Assembly: GCA_029261395.1 (NCBI GenBank)
Contig: JAJDBJ010000058.1
Span: forward strand, 1 to 64,000
Source: Nitrospinaceae bacterium
GTDB lineage: Bacteria > Nitrospinota > Nitrospinia > Nitrospinales > Nitrospinaceae
Direction: 5' to 3'
Length of the DNA stretch: 64,000 nucleotides
The number at the start of each line of letters is the position of its first letter. Position 1 is the stretch's first letter. The notes beneath the pieces were generated by a model. It was not told the DNA's origin. It saw nothing but the letters and a program-made list of their open reading frames with translations, and made no database searches. The position numbers and the translations under genes were made by a program. Shown here in pieces: positions 5,955 through 32,534 of the stretch.

Positions 5955-6905
5955 TTAAATCCCGAGGCTGTTCACCGCATCTTCAAGCGACATGGCAGTA
6001 CAGGTGAAAATCGGGGTGTCTTCTTCCGTGAACCGGCTGCCTTCGGTCTCTCGCAGGTCCATGACCAAGTCGACGAAGTCGTCAGGAGAGTCCGTTTCGA
6101 ACGCCACTACAAATTCGTAGTCGTCGATGCCGAAGGAATACGTAGTGTTCAGTTTCACCGAGGGGTACTTGTTGCCGATGAAAATATGTTCGTCCATGAT
6201 GCCCTGTCGCGCGAACTTGGTGAGCAGGTACCATTCCCGTTTTTTGGTGAAGGGGTAAATGAACAGGTATTTGGCTTTGCCGGGAATGATGTGCGTCCGG
6301 TCTTCTTCATGTTCCGGATTGAAGATATCCATGTACATGGACCGTTTGGTCTGGGAAAAGTACGAGTAAGTCTGAATCAGATATTTTCCGAGGCCGGTGC
6401 GGTACATTTTAGTGGTCATCTCCTGGAAATTTTCCATTCGATGGGACACTCGCCAGAACATGATTTCCGCATCGGCGCGGATGCCCATGGTGGTATAGCT
6501 GAGCAGGATGACGTCACCCCGGTTGTCATATTCTTCCAGCACTTCCATAAATTCTTTTTTGCCCTGATCAATTTGCTCCTGCGGCAAACGGCGGTACGCC
6601 GGGTCCAGCTTGAAGAATGAAAAATTGACGAACTGGCGGGGCGCCTGTTTCTCTTCTTTATTTTCGGCCTTTCTTTTCGCCTGCGCCTCTTCAACGGCTC
6701 CTGCCTCACGCTCCTGACGGGCACGGGAAACCACTTCATCATTGATCACTTCGATGCTCTTATCCTTGGCGTATTGTTCGATCCCCCGCACCACACTTTT
6801 ACGGACGAAAAAGGGAACATTCAGCATCCGGGCTCGGGCGTCTTCCGTCCAGTTCAGCTCGGTGTCGGGCATCAATTCATCAAGTTCTTTATCATCAATC
6901 GCCAT
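5955..6905 (-). CDS. PCP_red domain fused to a chlorite-dismutase/HemQ-like haem protein
   Basis: Residues about 17-63 match the PCP_red domain (LNWTEDARARMLNVPFFVRK ... YAKDKSIEVINDEVV), which is known from the C-terminus of light-independent protochlorophyllide reductase subunits. A charged linker (64-90) leads to a chlorite-dismutase superfamily domain (91-316). In that part, YPFTKKREWYLL aligns with the active-site Tyr/Lys region of coproheme decarboxylase HemQ (Y217). EHIFIGNKY aligns with the proximal-histidine segment (H240), and GIDDYEF aligns with the conserved GxDDWEW. Haem binding is therefore likely. Coproheme decarboxylation is possible, but true chlorite dismutation is doubtful without the distal Arg being checked. 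The gene is monocistronic, with a good promoter at 6946-6973. Confidence 0.8.
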   Translation of the reverse strand: MAIDDKELDELMPDTELNWTEDARARMLNVPFFVRKSVVRGIEQYAKDKSIEVINDEVVSRARQEREAGAVEEAQAKRKAENKEEKQAPRQFVNFSFFKLDPAYRRLPQEQIDQGKKEFMEVLEEYDNRGDVILLSYTTMGIRADAEIMFWRVSHRMENFQEMTTKMYRTGLGKYLIQTYSYFSQTKRSMYMDIFNPEHEEDRTHIIPGKAKYLFIYPFTKKREWYLLTKFARQGIMDEHIFIGNKYPSVKLNTTYSFGIDDYEFVVAFETDSPDDFVDLVMDLRETEGSRFTEEDTPIFTCTAMSLEDAVNSLGI

Positions 6906-6945
6906 GGTTTAATCTCTACGAATTAGGTTGGTAAGGTGTGGACAA

Positions 6946-6973
6946 ATTATACTATAATCCCTTGAAATATCAA
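6946..6973 (-). promoter_or_regulatory. Sigma-70-type promoter of the Cld-like gene
   Basis: On the minus strand TTGATA (6968-6973) and a perfect TATAAT (6946-6951) are 16 bp apart. They lie about 40 bp before the start codon. Confidence 0.6.
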
Positions 6974-7048
6974 TTTGATTGTCTTTCCAGTGGAAACTCT
7001 TTCAACACCTGCAATTTGAAAGGTTTTCCTGCACTCCTTTGGGTGTCA

Positions 7049-7054
7049 TATAAT
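7049..7054 (+). promoter_or_regulatory. -10 element for the rocD transcript
   Basis: A perfect TATAAT lies 48 bp before the ATG at 7102. No good -35 is seen (best TTCCTG at 17 bp). Transcription would start near 7061, which argues against the GTG at 7063 as the translation start. Confidence 0.45.
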
Positions 7055-7101
7055 AAACGCTGGTGCCCGTATTTTCAACATCAAACCCCCATGTGAGTGA
7101 T

Positions 7102-8304
7102 ATGAAAACCCAAGAGTTTATCGATCTTGAAAGCCAGTTTGGGGCTAATAATTACAAGCCTTTAGATGTGGTCCTGTGCCGAGGCGAAGGCATCTGGGTA
7201 TGGGATGTCGAAGGCAAAAAGTATCTGGATTGCCTCTCCGCCTACTCCGCAGTCAACCAGGGCCATTGCCATCCACGCATCCTAAAGGCCCTGACAGAGC
7301 AGGCCCAACAATTGACACTGGTGTCCAGAGCCTTCCGGACCGACCAGCTGGGCCCCTTCTACAAGGAATTATGCGAACTCACCCGATCCCACACGGTTTT
7401 ACCCATGAACAGCGGGGCCGAGGCGGTCGAGACGGCCATCAAAGCGGTTCGTAAATGGGGTTACGAAGTCAAACAGGTTCCCGAGGGCCAGGCGGAAATC
7501 ATCGTCTGCGCCAATAATTTTCATGGCCGGACCCTGACCATTGTCGGATTCAGTACGGAAGAGCAATATCGGCAGGGATACGCACCGTTCACTCCCGGAT
7601 TCAAGATTATCCCGTTCGGCGATGCCGAGGCCCTTGAGCAGGCCTTCACTCCGAATACCGTCGGATTTCTGGTGGAACCCATTCAGGGGGAAGGCGGGGT
7701 GATCGTCCCGCCCACGGGTTACCTGAAAGATGCCCGCCGCATCTGCAATGAAAATAACGTCATGCTGATCCTCGACGAAATCCAAACCGGATTGGGACGC
7801 ACCGGCAAACTGTTCGCGGAAGAACATGACGGCATTGAATCGGACCTGACCATCATCGGCAAAGCGTTGTCGGGAGGCTTTTATCCGATATCCGCCGTAC
7901 TGTCCAACAAGGAGGTGCTGGACGTGTTCAAACCGGGAGACCACGGGAGCACGTTCGGCGGCAACCCACTCGCCTGCGCGGTGGCGCGTGCGGCCTTGAA
8001 AGTCCTGACGGAAGAAAAACTGATCGAAAATTCTGCGAAGCTCGGTTCATACATGATGGATCAATTGCGGAAAATTGCCTCACCCCACGTCAAGGAAATC
8101 CGGGGCAAAGGATTGATGATCGGTGTCGAACTGCATCCCCAGGCTGGGGGCGCGCGACGATTCTGCGAAGCCCTGCAAACCAAGGGCCTGCTGTGCAAGG
8201 AAACTCATCAGCATGTACTACGCATCGCTCCGCCATTGATTATCCAAAAACCGGATATCGACTGGGCGCTGGAGCGCATTGCCGATGTGTTGAATCAAAT
8301 ATAA
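7102..8304 (+). CDS. rocD: Ornithine aminotransferase (ornithine--oxo-acid transaminase)
   Basis: This is a PLP enzyme of aminotransferase class III, interconverting ornithine plus 2-oxoglutarate with glutamate semialdehyde plus glutamate. Landmarks are [61 protein letters not shown], the Schiff-base lysine in IIGKALSGG, and [13 protein letters not shown]. The '[13 protein letters not shown]' signature separates OAT from acetylornithine and GABA transaminases. I take ATG 7102, because the upstream in-frame GTG (7063) is at the predicted transcription start. The next gene follows after 27 bp. Confidence 0.9.
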
Positions 8305-9979: not shown

Positions 9980-12163
9980 TTACTTTTTCCCCAACCCGGA
10001 AAATTTAAAAATATCGGACATGGCGTTCAGGAAATTACCTTGTTCCTGCGACTGCATGTCCTTTATTTTTTTCTCTTCATTGAAAATATTGAGACGAATT
10101 TCAGGCGGGCGCCCCAACAAATTATAAAGCGCATGGGACGTATGCACCGGTGGGTGACAGGTTCCCTCTTTACAAACGTAAGCCGTCGGCTGATTCGACA
10201 CAGGGCCGCGCCCCTCCGCCCATGGAATCCACTTTACAGTTTCCTCTCCCTGATACACGACTACCATTTGATTGGGACGGTAATCGCGGTAAAGAGTCTC
10301 CAGCATTTTCTGATACTCCTTATCCTCCTTCGGACCGGAGAGTACAATTTCCACCGGGGACGATTCCATAAAATCCATCGCGGCCAGCAGGGCGGTGTAG
10401 GCGGCGGGACGTTGTGCCATATCGCCCTGAAACGCCCGGACCGTTTGCCGCCCCTTCTCCTCAAACAATGGATTGCCGGTCAACCGCCCCAACCGCAATA
10501 AGGTCAAAGCGGCAACGGCATTGGCGGAAGGCATGGCATCGTCCATCGAATTTTTGAGACGCGCGATCAACGATTCATGATCGTTGGCAGTCATAAAAAA
10601 TCCGCCCTCCTTCTCATCCCAGAACTGATTGATCATTGATTCAGCTAGCGCCTGAGCCTTCTCCAGCCAATGCGATTCAAACGACGCCTCATAAAGAGAG
10701 ACCAGTGCTTCCAGTAAATAAGCGTAGTCCTCCAGACACCCCTTGAACCGCGCCTGGCCATCCTTATAAACCCGCAGGAGAGAACCCTCCTGCCACAAGT
10801 TTTTCCAAATGAAGTCGGCGCAGGTCGTGGCACGTTGCAGATACAACTCTTTGCGAAACACGATAAAACCTTTGGTCAGAGCAGAAATCATCAATCCATT
10901 CCAACCCGCCAGAATTTTTTCGTCGCGGTGCGGCGGGGGTCTTTTATTCCGCATTTCCAGCAGAGATTTCCTGGCATTTTTGATGATGTGTCCGACTTCA
11001 AAAATAGGCATCCCGGCTTCTTCAGCCGTTTTTTCCATATCCTGTATGACACGAAGGACATTGCGCCGCTCCAATTGTCCAGAGGGAGTAACTCCATACA
11101 TCCTCGCAAAAACCTGCGCGTGGCGCGGACCCAATAGATCCAGAACCTCTTTCAACTCCCAAGTGAAATAAACTCCCTCCCGGCCTTCGGTATCGGCGTC
11201 CTGGCTGGTAAAAAATGCACCTTCGGGGGAAGTCATCTCCCGATCCACATATTCAAAAATTTCTTCCGGGATGGTTCGATAAATATCCTGCTGAGTGGCC
11301 TGGAACGCATCCAGATACAGCCGGGCCATGAGAGCACTATCGCACAACATTTTCTCAAAATGCGGCACCCGCCATTCCCGGTCCGTCGAATACCGATGGA
11401 ACCCGCCGCCCAACTGGTCGTACATGCCGCCCTCGGCCATGTGAGTCAGGCTCTTGTCCACCATCATCAATACATCATTGTTCTCCGAATGCACCCAGTG
11501 CCGGAGAAGCAGAGCGTACAGCATGGGTTCCGGAAATTTCATGCCCGCCCCGAACCCGCCACAGGACTCATCGAATTTTTCGGTTAACAATTGGATAGCA
11601 TCCTGGATCAATGTTTGAGCTGAGTTTTCCTGGGCGACTGCGGGAATATTTCGCGTATTGATCTTCTGAATAATTTCACCGGATCGGCTCTGCACCTGCT
11701 CTTTTTGATCTCGGTATTGTTCGTGGGCATGCTGGAGCACTTCACCGAAGCCCGGTTGGTGATTACCCGGAACCGGTGGGAAATACGTCCCGCCAAAATA
11801 AGGTTTCTGTTCCGGAGTCAGAAACAGGTTCAAGGGCCAACCGCCCTGACCATTCATCGCGATCAGGGCGTTCATGTAAATCGCATCGATTTCCGGCCGC
11901 TCTTCCCGATCCACCTTGATATTGATGAACTTCTCGTTCATCTGGCGAGCCAGCTCCGCGTTGTCAAAACATTCATGGGACATGACATGGCACCAGTGGC
12001 AGGCCGAGTATCCGATACTCAGGAAAATCGGTTTGTCCTCACGTTTGGCCCTGTCGAGTGCTTCCGGACCCCAGGCATACCAATCCACCGGTTGATGGGA
12101 GTGCTGGAGCAAGTAAGGACTGGTTTCCTGTGACAGCCGGTTGGTCTTTTCGGATGGTGCCAT
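9980..12163 (-). CDS. YyaL-type thioredoxin-domain protein (DUF255 / spermatogenesis-associated 20 family)
   Basis: This is a 727-aa protein. Residues 1-170 form a thioredoxin-like DUF255 domain with the CxxC in SACHWCHVM, followed by ECFDNAELARQMNEKF. The remaining part is an (alpha/alpha)6 barrel like N-acylglucosamine 2-epimerases and cellobiose epimerases (for example GGFHRYSTDREWRVPHFEKM, LAGWNGLMISAL, MPSANAVAAL). The family is widespread and its reaction is not established. No signal peptide is visible, so it is cytoplasmic. It converges closely on the His-rich lipoprotein gene (10 bp apart). Confidence 0.9.
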   Translation of the reverse strand: MAPSEKTNRLSQETSPYLLQHSHQPVDWYAWGPEALDRAKREDKPIFLSIGYSACHWCHVMSHECFDNAELARQMNEKFINIKVDREERPEIDAIYMNALIAMNGQGGWPLNLFLTPEQKPYFGGTYFPPVPGNHQPGFGEVLQHAHEQYRDQKEQVQSRSGEIIQKINTRNIPAVAQENSAQTLIQDAIQLLTEKFDESCGGFGAGMKFPEPMLYALLLRHWVHSENNDVLMMVDKSLTHMAEGGMYDQLGGGFHRYSTDREWRVPHFEKMLCDSALMARLYLDAFQATQQDIYRTIPEEIFEYVDREMTSPEGAFFTSQDADTEGREGVYFTWELKEVLDLLGPRHAQVFARMYGVTPSGQLERRNVLRVIQDMEKTAEEAGMPIFEVGHIIKNARKSLLEMRNKRPPPHRDEKILAGWNGLMISALTKGFIVFRKELYLQRATTCADFIWKNLWQEGSLLRVYKDGQARFKGCLEDYAYLLEALVSLYEASFESHWLEKAQALAESMINQFWDEKEGGFFMTANDHESLIARLKNSMDDAMPSANAVAALTLLRLGRLTGNPLFEEKGRQTVRAFQGDMAQRPAAYTALLAAMDFMESSPVEIVLSGPKEDKEYQKMLETLYRDYRPNQMVVVYQGEETVKWIPWAEGRGPVSNQPTAYVCKEGTCHPPVHTSHALYNLLGRPPEIRLNIFNEEKKIKDMQSQEQGNFLNAMSDIFKFSGLGKK

Positions 12164-14248: not shown

Positions 14249-17083
14249 TCAGGAGTTAGATTTTTGAAGAGCCAAACTCAATAGCCGGGTGACGTCGGAA
14301 TCATAGGGCAACCATTCGCCCACCTTTTTTAAAACCACCACTGCCTGATCCGGGCGGTTGGTCTGCAGGTAAAGCCTGGCGAGGGAAAGGGATCCGAAAA
14401 CATAATAAGGGTTGATCTCCAGAGTCTTGCGATAGGACTGCTCCGCCTTTTCAAACTCCTGCACGACGGAGTACACGTTACCGAGATTCAAATGAGTCAG
14501 GATGTGGTCCGGCTCCTGCTCCAGGATTTTCAGATACAGATCAGCGGCTCGCTCATAAGCCTGCCGGCTTACCGCCGCCACCGCTTCATCCAGATACTGA
14601 TCGATGCGGGCTTTGCGCTTGATCTCTTTTACCTGAATCTCGGAACGCTCCAAAGTCCCGATATTTCCCAGCACCACCCTCCTCTCTTCTTCGCTCAATT
14701 CGTCAAATCGCAAAAGCGACGGCATCACCTGAAAGTGAGGGGTGATCTGGCGGACGATCACCTGCCGTTCATCCTTATAAATATATTCGGGCGCACCGAA
14801 CTCCAACAGGGAGTTATCATCTGTATGAATGGGAGCACCCTCACTGAATTTTTTCAACTCATCCTGATTCATGACCAGCAATCCCATCAAGTCGCGGACA
14901 CTCGATATCCCCAGCCGCTTCAACTCCCTTCCGCGAACCGGATCCTCCAGCAATCGTTTGACTTGTTCATAGGGCAACGAGTAAGGCTGGTGAGAGCCGA
15001 TCAACAGATAGTCGTCCCCGACAATGGACTCCCACATGGTGACATTGGGAAATACGGAAAGGAACGCGCGGGAGATGGACTTGAAACTCTCCGGCGACAT
15101 ATTGGTGTGCATCCAGATGCACATGATTCCACCCGGTTTCAATCGGGTATCCGCCAACTCGTAAAAATCCCGGGTGAACAACGCTCCTATCCCGGAAATC
15201 CAGGGATTAGAGGGTTCGGAAATGATAACGTCATATTTTTTATCCGTGAGTGTGATGTGATTCCGGCCGTCTTCCAGAATGACGCGTACCCGGGGATCGT
15301 CCAGCGCACGATGATTGAACGGATCAAAAAACCGACTGCCTTCAACCACCGTGGAAGAGATTTCCACCAGGTCAATATCTTTCGCCGGGAATTGTTCCAC
15401 CGCTCCCAGGGTCACCCCGCTCCCCTGCCCCACGACCAGAACGCTCTCCGGATTTTTACTGAAAAACATCGGGAGATAACCGGACAACAATTGCGTGCGC
15501 ATGTCCATCGCCAGTGAAGCGTCGGTCTTGCCATTCACCCGCAAAAAGATGTTGCCGTCAATGGACAATTCGGTGGTCACCGTGGTGTGCAACCCCTCTT
15601 TGTAAAAGAGAATTTTATTTTTATGTTGGAGGGCACCCTCCAACTCACCAATCCGGTACGGCATGAATGAGCCGCTGGAAATAACGGCTTTATCCCAAGA
15701 GTCAATACCGCGTGCACCCAGGACCCAGATCAACAGCAAACCCGGCAACACATAAGTTTTCAGATTGATGTGTAGGCTGGAGGTGTAGAGCAAAGTGATC
15801 CCCAGGATGATATTGACGAACACCGCCCAGAGAATCGTGTTTTGCACTCCCAGGATGGGAATCAATAGAAACCCGCCAATCAAAGAACCGAGAATCGTCC
15901 CCACGGTATTGAATGCGTACGCGGTTCCTACATGATGTCCCAGCGTCTTGAGATTACGCGCCACCAGCCGCACCACCACCGGAAACTGGGCACCCATCAG
16001 AAACGTGGGAATAAAGATCAGCGTAAGAATAATTAAAAAATTCGACCATTGGATTAAAGAAAAATCGAGGCCCCAGTTCAGGTACACCCAGCGGTTGACC
16101 AAAGGGACTTTCCCAAAGAAGGGCAAGGCCGCCAGAGCGGACAAGCCGATGCCCACCTGAAGCCAGCCGAATACTTTTTTCAAATCCTCAAAACGCCCAA
16201 CGATCCGGGAGAACACCAGCGTCCCAAATGCCAGCCCCAGAATGAAGGCGGTCAGAATCAAACTGAACGCATACACCGACGATCCCAACAGCAGGGAAAA
16301 AATACGGGTCCACGCCACCTGGTAAATCAACGACGCGATGCCGGTCACACAAAATCCGCCGAGGATCAAAATCACTTCCGGGGTATAAAACCGGGATTCT
16401 TGTTCCGAAGGGGGCAGTGTCTCTGCCAAATGGGTATGGGACCATTGACTGCGAAAGAAAATCAAGATGACTGAAGCGAGACCGAGGTTGAGACCTGCCG
16501 CAATCCAAATAGTGGTGCTCACACCATAAAGCTTCATGAACACAAATGCGCTGGTCAAGGCTCCCGCCACTGCTCCAAAAGTGTTCACGGCGTATAGGGT
16601 GCCGACATCCCGACCGATGACTTCCGGTTTCCCTGAAATGAATTTCCCCAAAATCGGCAAGGTTGCCCCCATCAGCGAAGCCGGGACCAGGAGAATCGCC
16701 CCGCATACCAGGAATCGGAAAAAACTGGTCAGTGTGTAGGATTGCTGGAAATTGGAATAGATCCACTGGAAGAACGGCAGGGAGGCGTCAATGAAGTGGG
16801 GAACAAGAAAACAGTAAATACCGATCGCGCCTTCGAGCAAAGCATAAATCAAAAGTGGTTTGCCCCCGCGATCGATCAACCTTCCGCCGAAAAAACTGCC
16901 GAGGGCGAGGCCCCCCATAAAGGTGGTGAGTACGGTAGATACGGAATAATGCGTGTTGCCGAGGACAAGGGTGAGCAGACGGGTCCACACCACTTCATAA
17001 ATAAGACCGGTGGCACCAGAAACGAAGAAAAAAATTAAAACCCAAATGCGAAAATAGGAGCGGCTCAAATGAGACTGTTCCAA
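14249..17083 (-). CDS. Polytopic membrane protein with spermidine-synthase-like domain and TPR tail
   Basis: This is a 944-aa fusion. Residues about 1-470 hold twelve to fourteen hydrophobic segments in two similar halves (FVSGATGLIYEVVWTRLL and FCVTGIASLIYQVAWTRIF both begin a repeat), an MFS-like layout. Residues 540-760 form a SAM-dependent methyltransferase/spermidine-synthase fold (VLVVGQGSGVTLGA, then VEISSTVV, DDPRVRVILEDGRNH and ISEPSNPWISG). The last 130 residues contain three TPRs. Such 'fused MFS/spermidine synthase' proteins are widespread, but their product is mostly unknown. It follows the FGE-like gene by 9 bp, so co-transcription is nearly certain. Confidence 0.85.
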   Translation of the reverse strand: MEQSHLSRSYFRIWVLIFFFVSGATGLIYEVVWTRLLTLVLGNTHYSVSTVLTTFMGGLALGSFFGGRLIDRGGKPLLIYALLEGAIGIYCFLVPHFIDASLPFFQWIYSNFQQSYTLTSFFRFLVCGAILLVPASLMGATLPILGKFISGKPEVIGRDVGTLYAVNTFGAVAGALTSAFVFMKLYGVSTTIWIAAGLNLGLASVILIFFRSQWSHTHLAETLPPSEQESRFYTPEVILILGGFCVTGIASLIYQVAWTRIFSLLLGSSVYAFSLILTAFILGLAFGTLVFSRIVGRFEDLKKVFGWLQVGIGLSALAALPFFGKVPLVNRWVYLNWGLDFSLIQWSNFLIILTLIFIPTFLMGAQFPVVVRLVARNLKTLGHHVGTAYAFNTVGTILGSLIGGFLLIPILGVQNTILWAVFVNIILGITLLYTSSLHINLKTYVLPGLLLIWVLGARGIDSWDKAVISSGSFMPYRIGELEGALQHKNKILFYKEGLHTTVTTELSIDGNIFLRVNGKTDASLAMDMRTQLLSGYLPMFFSKNPESVLVVGQGSGVTLGAVEQFPAKDIDLVEISSTVVEGSRFFDPFNHRALDDPRVRVILEDGRNHITLTDKKYDVIISEPSNPWISGIGALFTRDFYELADTRLKPGGIMCIWMHTNMSPESFKSISRAFLSVFPNVTMWESIVGDDYLLIGSHQPYSLPYEQVKRLLEDPVRGRELKRLGISSVRDLMGLLVMNQDELKKFSEGAPIHTDDNSLLEFGAPEYIYKDERQVIVRQITPHFQVMPSLLRFDELSEEERRVVLGNIGTLERSEIQVKEIKRKARIDQYLDEAVAAVSRQAYERAADLYLKILEQEPDHILTHLNLGNVYSVVQEFEKAEQSYRKTLEINPYYVFGSLSLARLYLQTNRPDQAVVVLKKVGEWLPYDSDVTRLLSLALQKSNS

Positions 17084-29262: not shown

Positions 29263-31635
29263 ATGGATTTGGAAACTCTAAACCTCCCACCGGAGGTCAA
29301 ACAGGAAATCGAAGACTTCGCCGCCGAAGTGGAACGGCTTGAAAAAGGCGAAGTGGGTGAAGAGGATTTCAAGCGGTTCCGCTTGCAACAGGGTATTTAC
29401 GGACAACGGCAGGAAGACGTGCAGATGGTCCGCACCAAACTGCCCTTCGGCCGTATCACTTCCGACCAGCTCAACTGCCTGGCCGATTTCGGGAAAAACT
29501 ATTCCAACGGGATTCTCCACGTCACCACCCGGCAGGACATACAGTTTCATTACGTCAAAATCAAAGACGTCCCCCAGGGCCTTCAGGATTTGGCGGAGCA
29601 TGGCTTAACCACGCGCGAAGCCTGCGGCAACACCGTCCGCAACGTCACCGCCTGCCATAAATCCGGCACCTGCAAAGAGGAAAAGTTTGACGTCACTCCC
29701 TACGCCGGAGCGGTATCCCGCTTTCTCCTGCGACACCCTTTAACGCAGAACATGGCACGCAAATTTAAAATCAGCCTCGGCGGATGTAAAGGCTGTGGCC
29801 TGGGGCCGATCCACGATATCGGCTTGAACGCGGAAGTCAAAAACGGAGTCCGTGGATTCAAGGTCATCATCGGCGGTGGTTTGGGTTCTTCTCCGCACTT
29901 GGCGAAACTTTTTTCAGATTTTGTGCCAGCCGACCAATTACTGCGCACATGCGAAGCCATTGTTCGGGTTTTCAACCAGCTTGGCGACAAGAAAAATCGT
30001 AATAAGGCTCGTTTCAAATATGTTGTGGAAAAACACGGCATCGAAAAAGTGAATGCGTTCGTGCAGGAAGAATTCAAGAAACTGGAAGGAACCCAATTCC
30101 CAGCAATCGTAATTCCAGAAGAGGCTACTCCCAACATTCCGGAATTTTCAACCAATGGAGATATGGAATCGGACAACGATTTTGTCCAGTGGAAAACGCG
30201 TAACGCGTACGAGCAGAGGCAGAACGGGTTTTACAACGTACACATTAAATTACAGTTGGGCGACCTGACCCACGACGAAGCCCGAGCCATCAGCAAAATT
30301 GCCTCAGACTATGCGGCAGGTATTCTCGTTTGCACCGTGTTTCAGAACCTCATGATCCCATGGGTGAAACCGGAAGCGTTCGGACCTATCTACAGCGCCC
30401 TTAAAAAAATTGGCCTGCACAAAGCCGGCACCGAAGAATTGAAAGATATGACGAGTTGCCCCGGTTCCGAGACCTGTAATCTGGGCATCACACACTCACG
30501 TGGACTGATCAACAAGTTGACCGAGGACGTGGACAATCAAACCACCGACTCCACCGATCTGGATCACATCACCATCAAAGCCAGCGGTTGCCCAAACTCC
30601 TGCGGTCAGCATCACATCGCATCCATCGGCTTTGCCGGTTCCGCGAAAAAAGTGAACGGCATTCTCGCTCCCCATTATGAAATGATGATGGGCGGCCGCA
30701 TCACCGAAGACGGAGCCGTTTTCGGCACCAATGTCATCAAGCTTCCGGCAAAAAATGCTGCTAACGCGGTGCGCCGTTCCGTTGATGCCTACAAGAAAGA
30801 CAAGCAGGGCGACGAATCATTTGTACAGTTCTTCGACCGGGTTGGGAAAGCCTACTTCTCCAACCTGCTGATCGATTTAAAAGAACTGCCGGATATCCAG
30901 TCGTCTCCCCAATCGTATATCGATTTCCATGCGACCAAGGCTTTTTCACTGGACGACCGGGGACAGGGCGAATGCGCCGGAGCGGTAACGGATATGATCT
31001 CCGACCACCTGTCCGAAGCCGAGCGTGCCCTCTTTCAATGTACCCGGGCCTTTGAAAAGAACGAATTTGCCGAAGCGGCCCGTCAGGCCAACCGGTCAAT
31101 CGCTTCCTCCGCCCGCGCTTTGCTGGTGACGGAGGGTATGGACTTTACCGACAACGTGGAAACCCTGAGCAAATTTGAATCGTTGATTGTGGAAACCGGC
31201 ATCGTTTCGGAAACCCACGCCGGCGTCACCAAGCGTTATCAGGAAGATCCTGAAAAAGCGGATAGCTCCAAAGCGAAGGCGATGTTGGATGAATCCCAGG
31301 CATTGGTCGATGAATGCAAGAAAGCCAACGATAAGATGCAGTCGGATAAATCGCTCCGCATCCGAGTGGGTTCTACGGGCAACGTTCCCAAGGGTGGCAC
31401 CGATGCTGAAGGCATCACCCAATCCATCGATCTGCTGGGTGTCAAATGCCCCTTCAATTACGTCAAAACCAAACTCAAGCTGGAGACCATGCAATCGGGT
31501 CAACACCTTGAGGTTCTTCTGGACGACGGCGAACCTGCCACCAACGTTCCCCGAAGTGTCCAGAACGACGGTCACAAACTACTGTCCCATGTGGAAGAAA
31601 ACGGACACCACAAAATCGTCATCGAAAAAGCATAA
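29263..31635 (+). CDS. Siroheme nitrite/sulfite reductase with C-terminal TusA domain
   Basis: This 790-aa protein has the duplicated NIR/SIR plan: a ferredoxin-like half-domain (about 45-125; GRITSDQLNCLADFGKNYSN), a first siroheme domain (130-290), a second half-domain (315-380), and a second siroheme domain (405-540). The 4Fe-4S/siroheme cysteines are complete in CPGSETC and CPNSC. Its first half also has CHKSGTC and GGCKGCG. A helical segment (560-700) follows, then a TusA/SirA-like domain (721-790) with the sulfur-accepting Cys in GVKCPFNYVK (C729). It may reduce sulfite or nitrite; the TusA part suggests sulfur. It may be co-transcribed with yicC (17-bp gap). Confidence 0.9.
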   Translation: MDLETLNLPPEVKQEIEDFAAEVERLEKGEVGEEDFKRFRLQQGIYGQRQEDVQMVRTKLPFGRITSDQLNCLADFGKNYSNGILHVTTRQDIQFHYVKIKDVPQGLQDLAEHGLTTREACGNTVRNVTACHKSGTCKEEKFDVTPYAGAVSRFLLRHPLTQNMARKFKISLGGCKGCGLGPIHDIGLNAEVKNGVRGFKVIIGGGLGSSPHLAKLFSDFVPADQLLRTCEAIVRVFNQLGDKKNRNKARFKYVVEKHGIEKVNAFVQEEFKKLEGTQFPAIVIPEEATPNIPEFSTNGDMESDNDFVQWKTRNAYEQRQNGFYNVHIKLQLGDLTHDEARAISKIASDYAAGILVCTVFQNLMIPWVKPEAFGPIYSALKKIGLHKAGTEELKDMTSCPGSETCNLGITHSRGLINKLTEDVDNQTTDSTDLDHITIKASGCPNSCGQHHIASIGFAGSAKKVNGILAPHYEMMMGGRITEDGAVFGTNVIKLPAKNAANAVRRSVDAYKKDKQGDESFVQFFDRVGKAYFSNLLIDLKELPDIQSSPQSYIDFHATKAFSLDDRGQGECAGAVTDMISDHLSEAERALFQCTRAFEKNEFAEAARQANRSIASSARALLVTEGMDFTDNVETLSKFESLIVETGIVSETHAGVTKRYQEDPEKADSSKAKAMLDESQALVDECKKANDKMQSDKSLRIRVGSTGNVPKGGTDAEGITQSIDLLGVKCPFNYVKTKLKLETMQSGQHLEVLLDDGEPATNVPRSVQNDGHKLLSHVEENGHHKIVIEKA

Positions 31636-31652: not shown

Positions 31653-32534
31653 ATGCTTAACAGTATGACCGGTTACGGTCGGTCGGAAAAACAAAATGGA
31701 CAGTTCGCGTGCAAGGCGGAGGTCCGTTCCGTCAACAACCGCTTCATCGAAGTCAATACTCGCCTGCCCAAGTTTCTGTCCGCACTGGAACTGCCCCTCA
31801 AAAAACTGATTAAGTCCAAATGCGGACGGGGGTCGTTCGACCTGTTCCTGACCCTGGAAAAAGAAGACGCGGCCGGCGCCGCTCTTGAAATCAAACCCAA
31901 CCTGGGCCTTGCCACTCAATACTTCGAGGCCTTTAAGAAAATCAAAGACGAACTCGGTCTGGCAGGCGACATGCCCATCGAAGCCCTGCTGGGAGTGAAA
32001 GACATTATCAAAACAGAACCGTTGACTCTCGACACGTCTCAGGAAGAAATGATTCTGGAAACCGTCGAAGAGGCGATGTCGGCTCTGATAAGTATGCGGC
32101 AGGAAGAAGGCAACAATCTGCAAAAGGACCTTGCCGGCCGGTTGCAGGACATTCATCAATTGGTGCAAACAATCCAGGAACGCCAACCCGTGGTGCTGGT
32201 AGAGTACCGCAACCGTCTTAATGATAAAATCAAAACACTGACCGAGGGACTGGAGCTGGACGAAACCCGACTGGCACAGGAAACCGCCCTGATGGCAGAC
32301 CGGTGCGATATCTCAGAGGAAATCACCCGTCTGGGAAGTCACTTTGAGCAGTTCAACAGCATGTTTGAAAAAGCCGGGCCGATTGGTCGGAAGATGGAAT
32401 TCGTCACCCAGGAAATCAACCGGGAAACCAATACCATCGGTTCCAAGTCGGTGGATTACCAAGTTTCGCAGAGTGTGATCGAGATCAAGAGTCTTCTGGA
32501 AAAAATCAGGGAGCAAATCCAGAATATCGAATAA
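31653..32534 (+). CDS. YicC family endoribonuclease-like protein
   Basis: The 293-aa protein starts MLNSMTGYGRSEKQN, the unmistakable YicC N-terminus, with VEVRSVNNRFIEVNTRLP-like continuation and the C-terminal DUF1732 helix (EEITRLGSHFEQFNSMF and GRKMEFVTQEINRETNTIGSKS). YicC proteins are RNases in E. coli. In many bacteria yicC precedes gmk, as here (gap 7-40 bp). Confidence 0.95.
   Translation: MLNSMTGYGRSEKQNGQFACKAEVRSVNNRFIEVNTRLPKFLSALELPLKKLIKSKCGRGSFDLFLTLEKEDAAGAALEIKPNLGLATQYFEAFKKIKDELGLAGDMPIEALLGVKDIIKTEPLTLDTSQEEMILETVEEAMSALISMRQEEGNNLQKDLAGRLQDIHQLVQTIQERQPVVLVEYRNRLNDKIKTLTEGLELDETRLAQETALMADRCDISEEITRLGSHFEQFNSMFEKAGPIGRKMEFVTQEINRETNTIGSKSVDYQVSQSVIEIKSLLEKIREQIQNIE

Follow-up and report, generated by a model that had tools for sequence, protein, structure and literature searches.

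A gene at positions 29263..31635 (+) of the window, the 64,000-nucleotide stretch of a Nitrospinaceae bacterium contig analyzed here, encodes a protein of 790 amino acids (ATG start) in which a duplicated siroheme sulfite reductase is joined, through a HEPN-like domain and a variable linker, to a TusA domain. This is a real domain fusion that is found across the order Nitrospinales. The protein is very probably an assimilatory sulfite reductase. On balance we favor, as the best explanation of its architecture, a tethered-acceptor model in which the reductase carries its own TusA.

Both pairs of half domains were recovered by Pfam (NIR_SIR_ferr twice and NIR_SIR twice, E 7.7e-47), with scores for PF01077 and PF03460 of 159 bits (cut-off 27) and 120 bits (cut-off 24), over two stretches each. 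The complete duplicated sulfite/nitrite reductase that an earlier note, made from the sequence alone, had read in one polypeptide is thereby confirmed. All features lie on the + strand. The first ferredoxin-like half domain (PF03460, residues 46-112, 29398..29598) contains R57 and the first NIR_SIR domain (residues 121-273, 29623..30081) the catalytic residues R126, K167 and K169, while the second ferredoxin-like and NIR_SIR domains (30205..30870) hold the canonical siroheme/[4Fe-4S] motif C399-x5-C405 ... C443-x3-C447. A helical HEPN-like domain (residues 556-700, 30928..31362) and a poorly conserved linker of about 17 residues (703-719, 31369..31419) follow; what had been described as a helical linker thus goes beyond a linker, most of it being a putative HEPN-like domain and only its end a short variable connection. 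The TusA domain (residues 721-789, 31423..31629, E 3.1e-20) is of a CPFNYVK subtype and was identified by PF01206 at 72.2 bits against a gathering cut-off of 28.6, and its putative sulfur-accepting cysteine is exactly the C729 named in the earlier note (codon 31447..31449).

The open reading frame contains no internal stop, and the same open architecture recurs in independent assemblies of many species, so that we regard it as a single gene and reject a frameshift, a two-gene artifact or a chimera. Relatives with 87-92% identity over 790 amino acids came from metagenome-assembled genomes titled Nitrospinaceae, Nitrospinota or Nitrospirae. The endoribonuclease gene yicC (31653..32534, +) starts 17 bases past the fusion stop and is probably co-transcribed with the fusion gene; it is followed by gmk, hisC and mltG, and no sulfur genes adjoin the fusion gene in this neighborhood.

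In order to establish how often the architecture occurs, as the earlier note had proposed, 77 genomes of the phylum were surveyed, including 64 of the window's order (G000, G004-G066), with counts taken from the match table. The TusA tail is attached in 52 of the 64 Nitrospinales genomes. For 42 of them the match runs from within the first 70 query residues through 789/790, and for 10 more, whose contigs are broken, edge-cut or masked, the TusA end is joined at minimum to the HEPN-like segment. Four genomes (G009-G012) encode the reductase without TusA, three could not be assigned (G021 and G044 at contig ends, G057 with masked bases), and five showed no such reductase, two of these being incomplete. 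Outside the order, the complete architecture recurs in G001 (L050), with 35% identity. The fusion is thus lineage-wide within Nitrospinales. Our survey beyond the phylum consisted of plasmid, contig and viral scans. The fusion was seen neither among the plasmid records listed nor in the viral scan, and the contig scan recovers only close relatives; the fusion may exist in other phyla. A related reductase is carried by 109 plasmid records, and among the 60 listed none extends to the TusA domain.

The tail-less sequences do not form one group. In the reductase tree G010-G012 and G009 branch at separate points within the fused sequences, which reads as at least two losses of the tail with retention of the reductase. 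No TusA remnant was found downstream of the tail-less genes in G009 and G010-G012. With the reductase kept in at least two lineages after loss of the tail, TusA is accessory and not essential for sulfite reduction.

Where it is present, TusA is the most conserved domain of the fusion protein. Compared with other genera, the query is on average 74% identical in TusA and 65% in the reductase; the HEPN-like part reaches 55% and the linker 18%. The dN/dS of the TusA domain is 0.02-0.17 (within the genus and against G005). These ratios indicate that the domain is under purifying selection, and the tail, though dispensable, would thus matter to the cell. C729 is a cysteine in 30 of 31 homologues that have the domain and a tyrosine in one, G007 (L036 403-2811). 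The tail of G007 is diverged, and its genome also has a fragment of a separate second reductase copy.

The fused TusA differs from TusA proper, as it shows the motif CPFN in place of CPxP and reaches only 21.1 bits against 78 for NF001423. In a tree of 75 alignment columns it forms one clade (support 97/95) with stand-alone TusA proteins linked to sulfite reductases. This clade stands apart from canonical TusA and YedF, its inner forks being weakly separated. The stand-alone partners also keep the cysteine; in the sulfate-assimilation clusters of sister lineages their genes lie directly beside half-size siroheme reductases or a PHO4-family transporter. Four such clusters from non-Nitrospinia Nitrospinota (L051-L054) share the order (cysD-cysN-)half-size reductase with an inserted ferredoxin-TusA-cysH(-sat)-PHO4 transporter-TusA, some contigs being truncated ahead of the reductase or TusA; the half-size reductase, with TusA and cysH next in line, lies at L051 6119-7467, L052 2329-3841 and L053 115-1418. 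A fifth cluster, L055, reads CysK-ThiS-Cys/Met PLP enzyme-ThiF-reductase-TusA-DUF2061-CysH-CysD-CysN, and its half-size siroheme reductase is fused to a Prok-JAB metallopeptidase (6438-7709). These operons agree with the description of SirA genes in operons of rhodanese-less E1 enzymes (Iyer et al., 2006, PMC1779556). Sir was called absent from most non-Nitrospinia Nitrospinota and sulfate assimilation there incomplete in a 2024 study (PMC10839748), and the half-size reductases are candidates to fill this gap.

The fused TusA is also the only cysteine-bearing TusA detected in the genome. Together with its clade, whose stand-alone members are linked to sulfite reductases, this suggests that the domain is functionally tied to the reductase. 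The one other TusA-like protein of the genome was rejected as a second functional stand-alone TusA, being a paralogue that lacks the cysteine. Such cysteine-less paralogues, with GLSFF replacing GLxCP, are conserved in Nitrospinia (L043, G000 C5:140985-141197; L086-L091; L093-L095).

Canonical TusA works with a cysteine desulfurase, and in sulfur oxidizers TusA delivers sulfur to DsrEFH and DsrC. The fused domain might accordingly be a general housekeeping carrier, loaded by IscS or a rhodanese and serving tRNA, molybdopterin or thiamine, that is attached to the sulfite reductase without taking its sulfur. We consider this unlikely, albeit with several points in its favor. Being the sole cysteine-bearing TusA of the genome would suit a general carrier, MnmA (trmU) is encoded, and partnership with a desulfurase is the canonical role of the protein. 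However, the TusE/DsrC partner is missing in 14 of 16 genomes tested, the window's genome included, and a TusE relay for tRNA thiolation was rejected on this ground. The distance from canonical TusA and the separate clade with sulfite-reductase-linked TusAs likewise speak against it, as do the tail-less lineages, whose genomes contain no other cysteine-bearing TusA at all.

A quite unlikely alternative is that TusA is a regulatory or structural appendage that serves in product or redox sensing, dimer contact or substrate tethering, with C729 as a sensor thiol. The dispensable tail, the retention of the fold with tyrosine for cysteine in G007 and the cysteine-less paralogues in the same genomes are consistent with such a role. 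Against it stand the conservation of C729 in all but one homologue, the cysteine kept by the linked stand-alone proteins, and the nature of the linker. Residues 703-719 have a mean pairwise identity of 28%, and as they are so poorly conserved a flexible, mobile arm, which we infer here, fits better than a fixed structural contact.

The segment ahead of the linker begins with a GxGEC motif (C571, codon 30973-30975) that opens the HEPN-like domain and is invariant in 37 of 37 homologues. Of 24 homologous segments, 16 matched HEPN (PF05168) with E values no higher than 0.05, the best being 5.6e-6, and the segment of the fusion protein itself scores 18.5 bits, below the cut-off of 22. AlphaFold2 models on shallow alignments were too poor for a fold search, with pLDDT of 33 for the whole protein and 52 for the HEPN-like part. 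In Thermus oshimai the GxGEC motif is the extreme C terminus of the reductase (GECAV).

The identity of the reductase rests on its active site and its genomic setting. The tetrad R57, R126, K167 and K169 aligns with E. coli CysI R83, R153, K215 and K217 and is invariant in 37/37 homologues, as is the second-half Cx5C-Xn-Cx3C motif. A lysine or an asparagine at the K217 position is a marker of sulfite or nitrite reduction, respectively, known from plant nitrite reductase. The fusion protein and a separate NirA (C54) are the only NIR_SIR proteins of the genome, and NirA has asparagine at the position equivalent to K169. CysH, CysD and CysN are encoded as well, and no further sulfite reductase was found in the genome, though CysH makes sulfite. 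It is on these grounds, namely the sulfite-type residues, the separate NirA with asparagine and the CysD/CysN/CysH set, that we consider an assimilatory sulfite reductase very probable. The nearest annotated relative outside the phylum, with 42.5% identity, is from Thermus oshimai and lies within a sulfate-assimilation operon (cysH, sat, siroheme genes). Scores of 125 and 122 bits against cut-offs of 731.5 and 756.55 for NCBIfam sir (TIGR02042) and CysI (TIGR02041) led us to file the protein as a putative subfamily separate from these equivalogs. For Nitrospina gracilis a ferredoxin-sulfite reductase has been described, with no mention of TusA (PMC3578206).

That the enzyme is mainly a nitrite reductase for ammonium supply, as might be expected in a nitrite oxidizer, with a minor role for TusA, is very improbable. 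In favor of it, plant nitrite reductases are the best matches by sequence in PDB, and nitrite is also a substrate of siroheme sulfite reductases in vitro (PMC10229431). Against it, the genome encodes a separate NirA with the nitrite-type asparagine, the fusion protein has the sulfite-type lysine, and no other sulfite reductase was found in the genome for the sulfite that CysH makes. The NirA models NF007125 and NF007126 score 204.6 against 594 and 242.8 against 523 bits. The choice between sulfite and nitrite, for which the earlier note had proposed an assay, is decided here in silico in favor of sulfite as the predicted substrate, from K169 against N169 of NirA, and we rejected the nitrite reductase identity.

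An oxidation of TusA-bound sulfur to sulfite for energy, as in reverse Dsr and as the earlier note had entertained in suggesting that the fusion might run in reverse, is hardly credible and was rejected, since, although TusA feeds DsrEFH/DsrC in sulfur oxidizers (PMC10839748), a search of the genome for DsrC (PF04358) gave no match and matches to the DsrE superfamily were only weak, and since the active site is of the assimilatory type. Reductases of this type, one being Fsr, whose active-site traits match, are described as unidirectional (PMC10229431). Sulfite is supplied by CysDN and CysH, and Nitrospinia are nitrite oxidizers in which the route of sulfate assimilation is complete (PMC3578206).

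According to the literature, the first half of assimilatory sulfite reductases no longer has its cluster motif (PMC10229431). The fusion protein retains four cysteines there, C131-x5-C137 ... C175-x2-C178 (29653..29796), which are invariant in all 37 homologues covering the region; in G001 the first half reads Cx5C...Cx3C. According to our alignment, the quartet is absent from the reductases of Thermus, Bacteroidota, Sinorhizobium, Deinococcus and E. coli. Its conservation suggests that the first half has a further Fe-S or siroheme site. Residues 327, 394, 435 and 437 of the second half, which would lie opposite that site, vary and differ from the catalytic set, and any cofactor in the first half would more likely be structural or serve electron transfer, like the site of DsrA.

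The tethered-acceptor model that we favor starts from what is observed in the sequences: the domain layout, an active site of the sulfite type, a TusA that is conserved and under selection, and related TusAs that are linked to sulfite reductases. CysDN and CysH would convert sulfate to sulfite, and ferredoxin would presumably feed electrons to the duplicated core, where sulfite would be reduced at the second-half siroheme/[4Fe-4S] with R57, R126, K167 and K169 of the first half. TusA would be carried by the HEPN-like helices and the variable linker, so positioned that C729 may take the sulfur leaving the active site and pass it to a cytoplasmic acceptor. We infer this transfer, and judge it somewhat probable that TusA accepts the sulfur made by its own reductase. 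The hand-off of reduced sulfur to a carrier, as the earlier note had imagined it, gains from the conserved domain, its operon-linked relatives and the lack of another cysteine-bearing TusA among those detected, and loses from the lineages without a tail and from a gene neighborhood free of sulfur genes.

Assimilatory sulfite reductases are assumed to supply cysteine synthase with free sulfide. Here it is plausible that freshly reduced sulfur would pass directly to the carrier and not be released as toxic sulfide. Full reduction yields sulfide, which cannot persulfidate a reduced thiol without an oxidant, and so the oxidation level at which sulfur is handed over would matter, the hand-off needing an S(0)-level intermediate or else a disulfide or oxidized acceptor. 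DsrAB gives such an S(0)-level intermediate to DsrC (PMC10229431). The occurrence of the fusion across a lineage of abundant marine nitrite oxidizers, and the pairing of adjacent genes in its sisters, suggest that assimilated sulfur may be channeled on protein cysteines as in dissimilatory reduction. If true, such channeling would protect heme enzymes from sulfide.

A possible acceptor is the cysteine pathway of a rhodanese-less MoeB/ThiF, CysO and CysM encoded elsewhere in the genome. The operon in G000 C39 encodes a MoaD/CysO-like (CysO/SAMP-like) protein ending in GGAR (L131 8558-8839), a 267-aa MoeB/ThiF without rhodanese, and CysM, and a JAB protein is encoded on C51. Trimming by a JAB peptidase before thiocarboxylation is known for HcyS, and the GGAR end would need it too. 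The assignment is weak, a guess that we hold doubtful, because genomes that lack TusA have CysO-like and JAB genes too and the genome is rich in rhodaneses, one of them in a 389-aa frame of MoeZ-like size.

If the model holds, the protein would resemble DsrAB-DsrC in that a siroheme reductase passes sulfur to a protein cysteine. The carrier is unrelated, however, and has one cysteine rather than two, the active site is assimilatory and the genome lacks DsrC. The most far-reaching version, a monomeric assimilatory counterpart of DsrAB-DsrC in which partly reduced, S(0)-level sulfur moves from siroheme to the tethered TusA cysteine with no free sulfide released, another [4Fe-4S] or a structural siroheme sits in the first half, and cysteine is made from the sulfur by way of a protein thiocarboxylate, appears rather unlikely to be correct in all its parts at once.

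The fusion is a further case of a siroheme reductase joined to a sulfur carrier, a combination known in other forms. With assimilatory Sir, CysI and SirA-type NirA it shares the duplicated core, the second-half Cx5C-Xn-Cx3C motif, the R/R/K/K tetrad and the sulfate-assimilation genome context, but it differs from Sir and CysI in the C-terminal HEPN-like and TusA domains, the four cysteines of the first half and scores far below the NCBIfam cut-offs. Bacteroidota proteins annotated as nitrite/sulfite reductase (Persicobacter, Aureibacter) have the core, the HEPN-like domain and GxGEC in common with it (about 34-35% identity over residues 1-714), but lack TusA and the first-half quartet. The Wolinella Hcy pathway is a comparable sulfate assimilation with TusA/SirA and sulfite reductase. 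There, as in the class 4e operons of SirA(TusA), ThiS, JAB, E1 without rhodanese and sulfite reductase (Iyer et al., 2006, PMC1779556), of which L055 is an example, TusA/SirA genes stand beside the reductase and a rhodanese-less E1; TusA is a separate gene in class 4e operons, whereas here it is inside the reductase polypeptide and the CysO, E1 and CysM genes are elsewhere in the genome. In actinobacteria, sulfite reductase carries a C-terminal ThiS-like domain (Iyer et al., 2006, PMC1779556), in the same position as TusA here, but that carrier is a ubiquitin-like thiocarboxylate protein of another fold and chemistry. Rhodanese-NirA fusions of Halobacteria (19 of 529 archaeal NirA proteins; PMC11237513) likewise place a sulfur-carrier domain on a siroheme reductase, a rhodanese there and TusA here. 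Among openly readable papers, we found no mention of a TusA-sulfite reductase fusion.

Two further proteins encoded in the window were noted, a 944-aa protein with MFS transporter, spermidine synthase and TPR domains (14249-17083) and a 727-aa thioredoxin-like DsbH/DUF255 protein (9980-12163).
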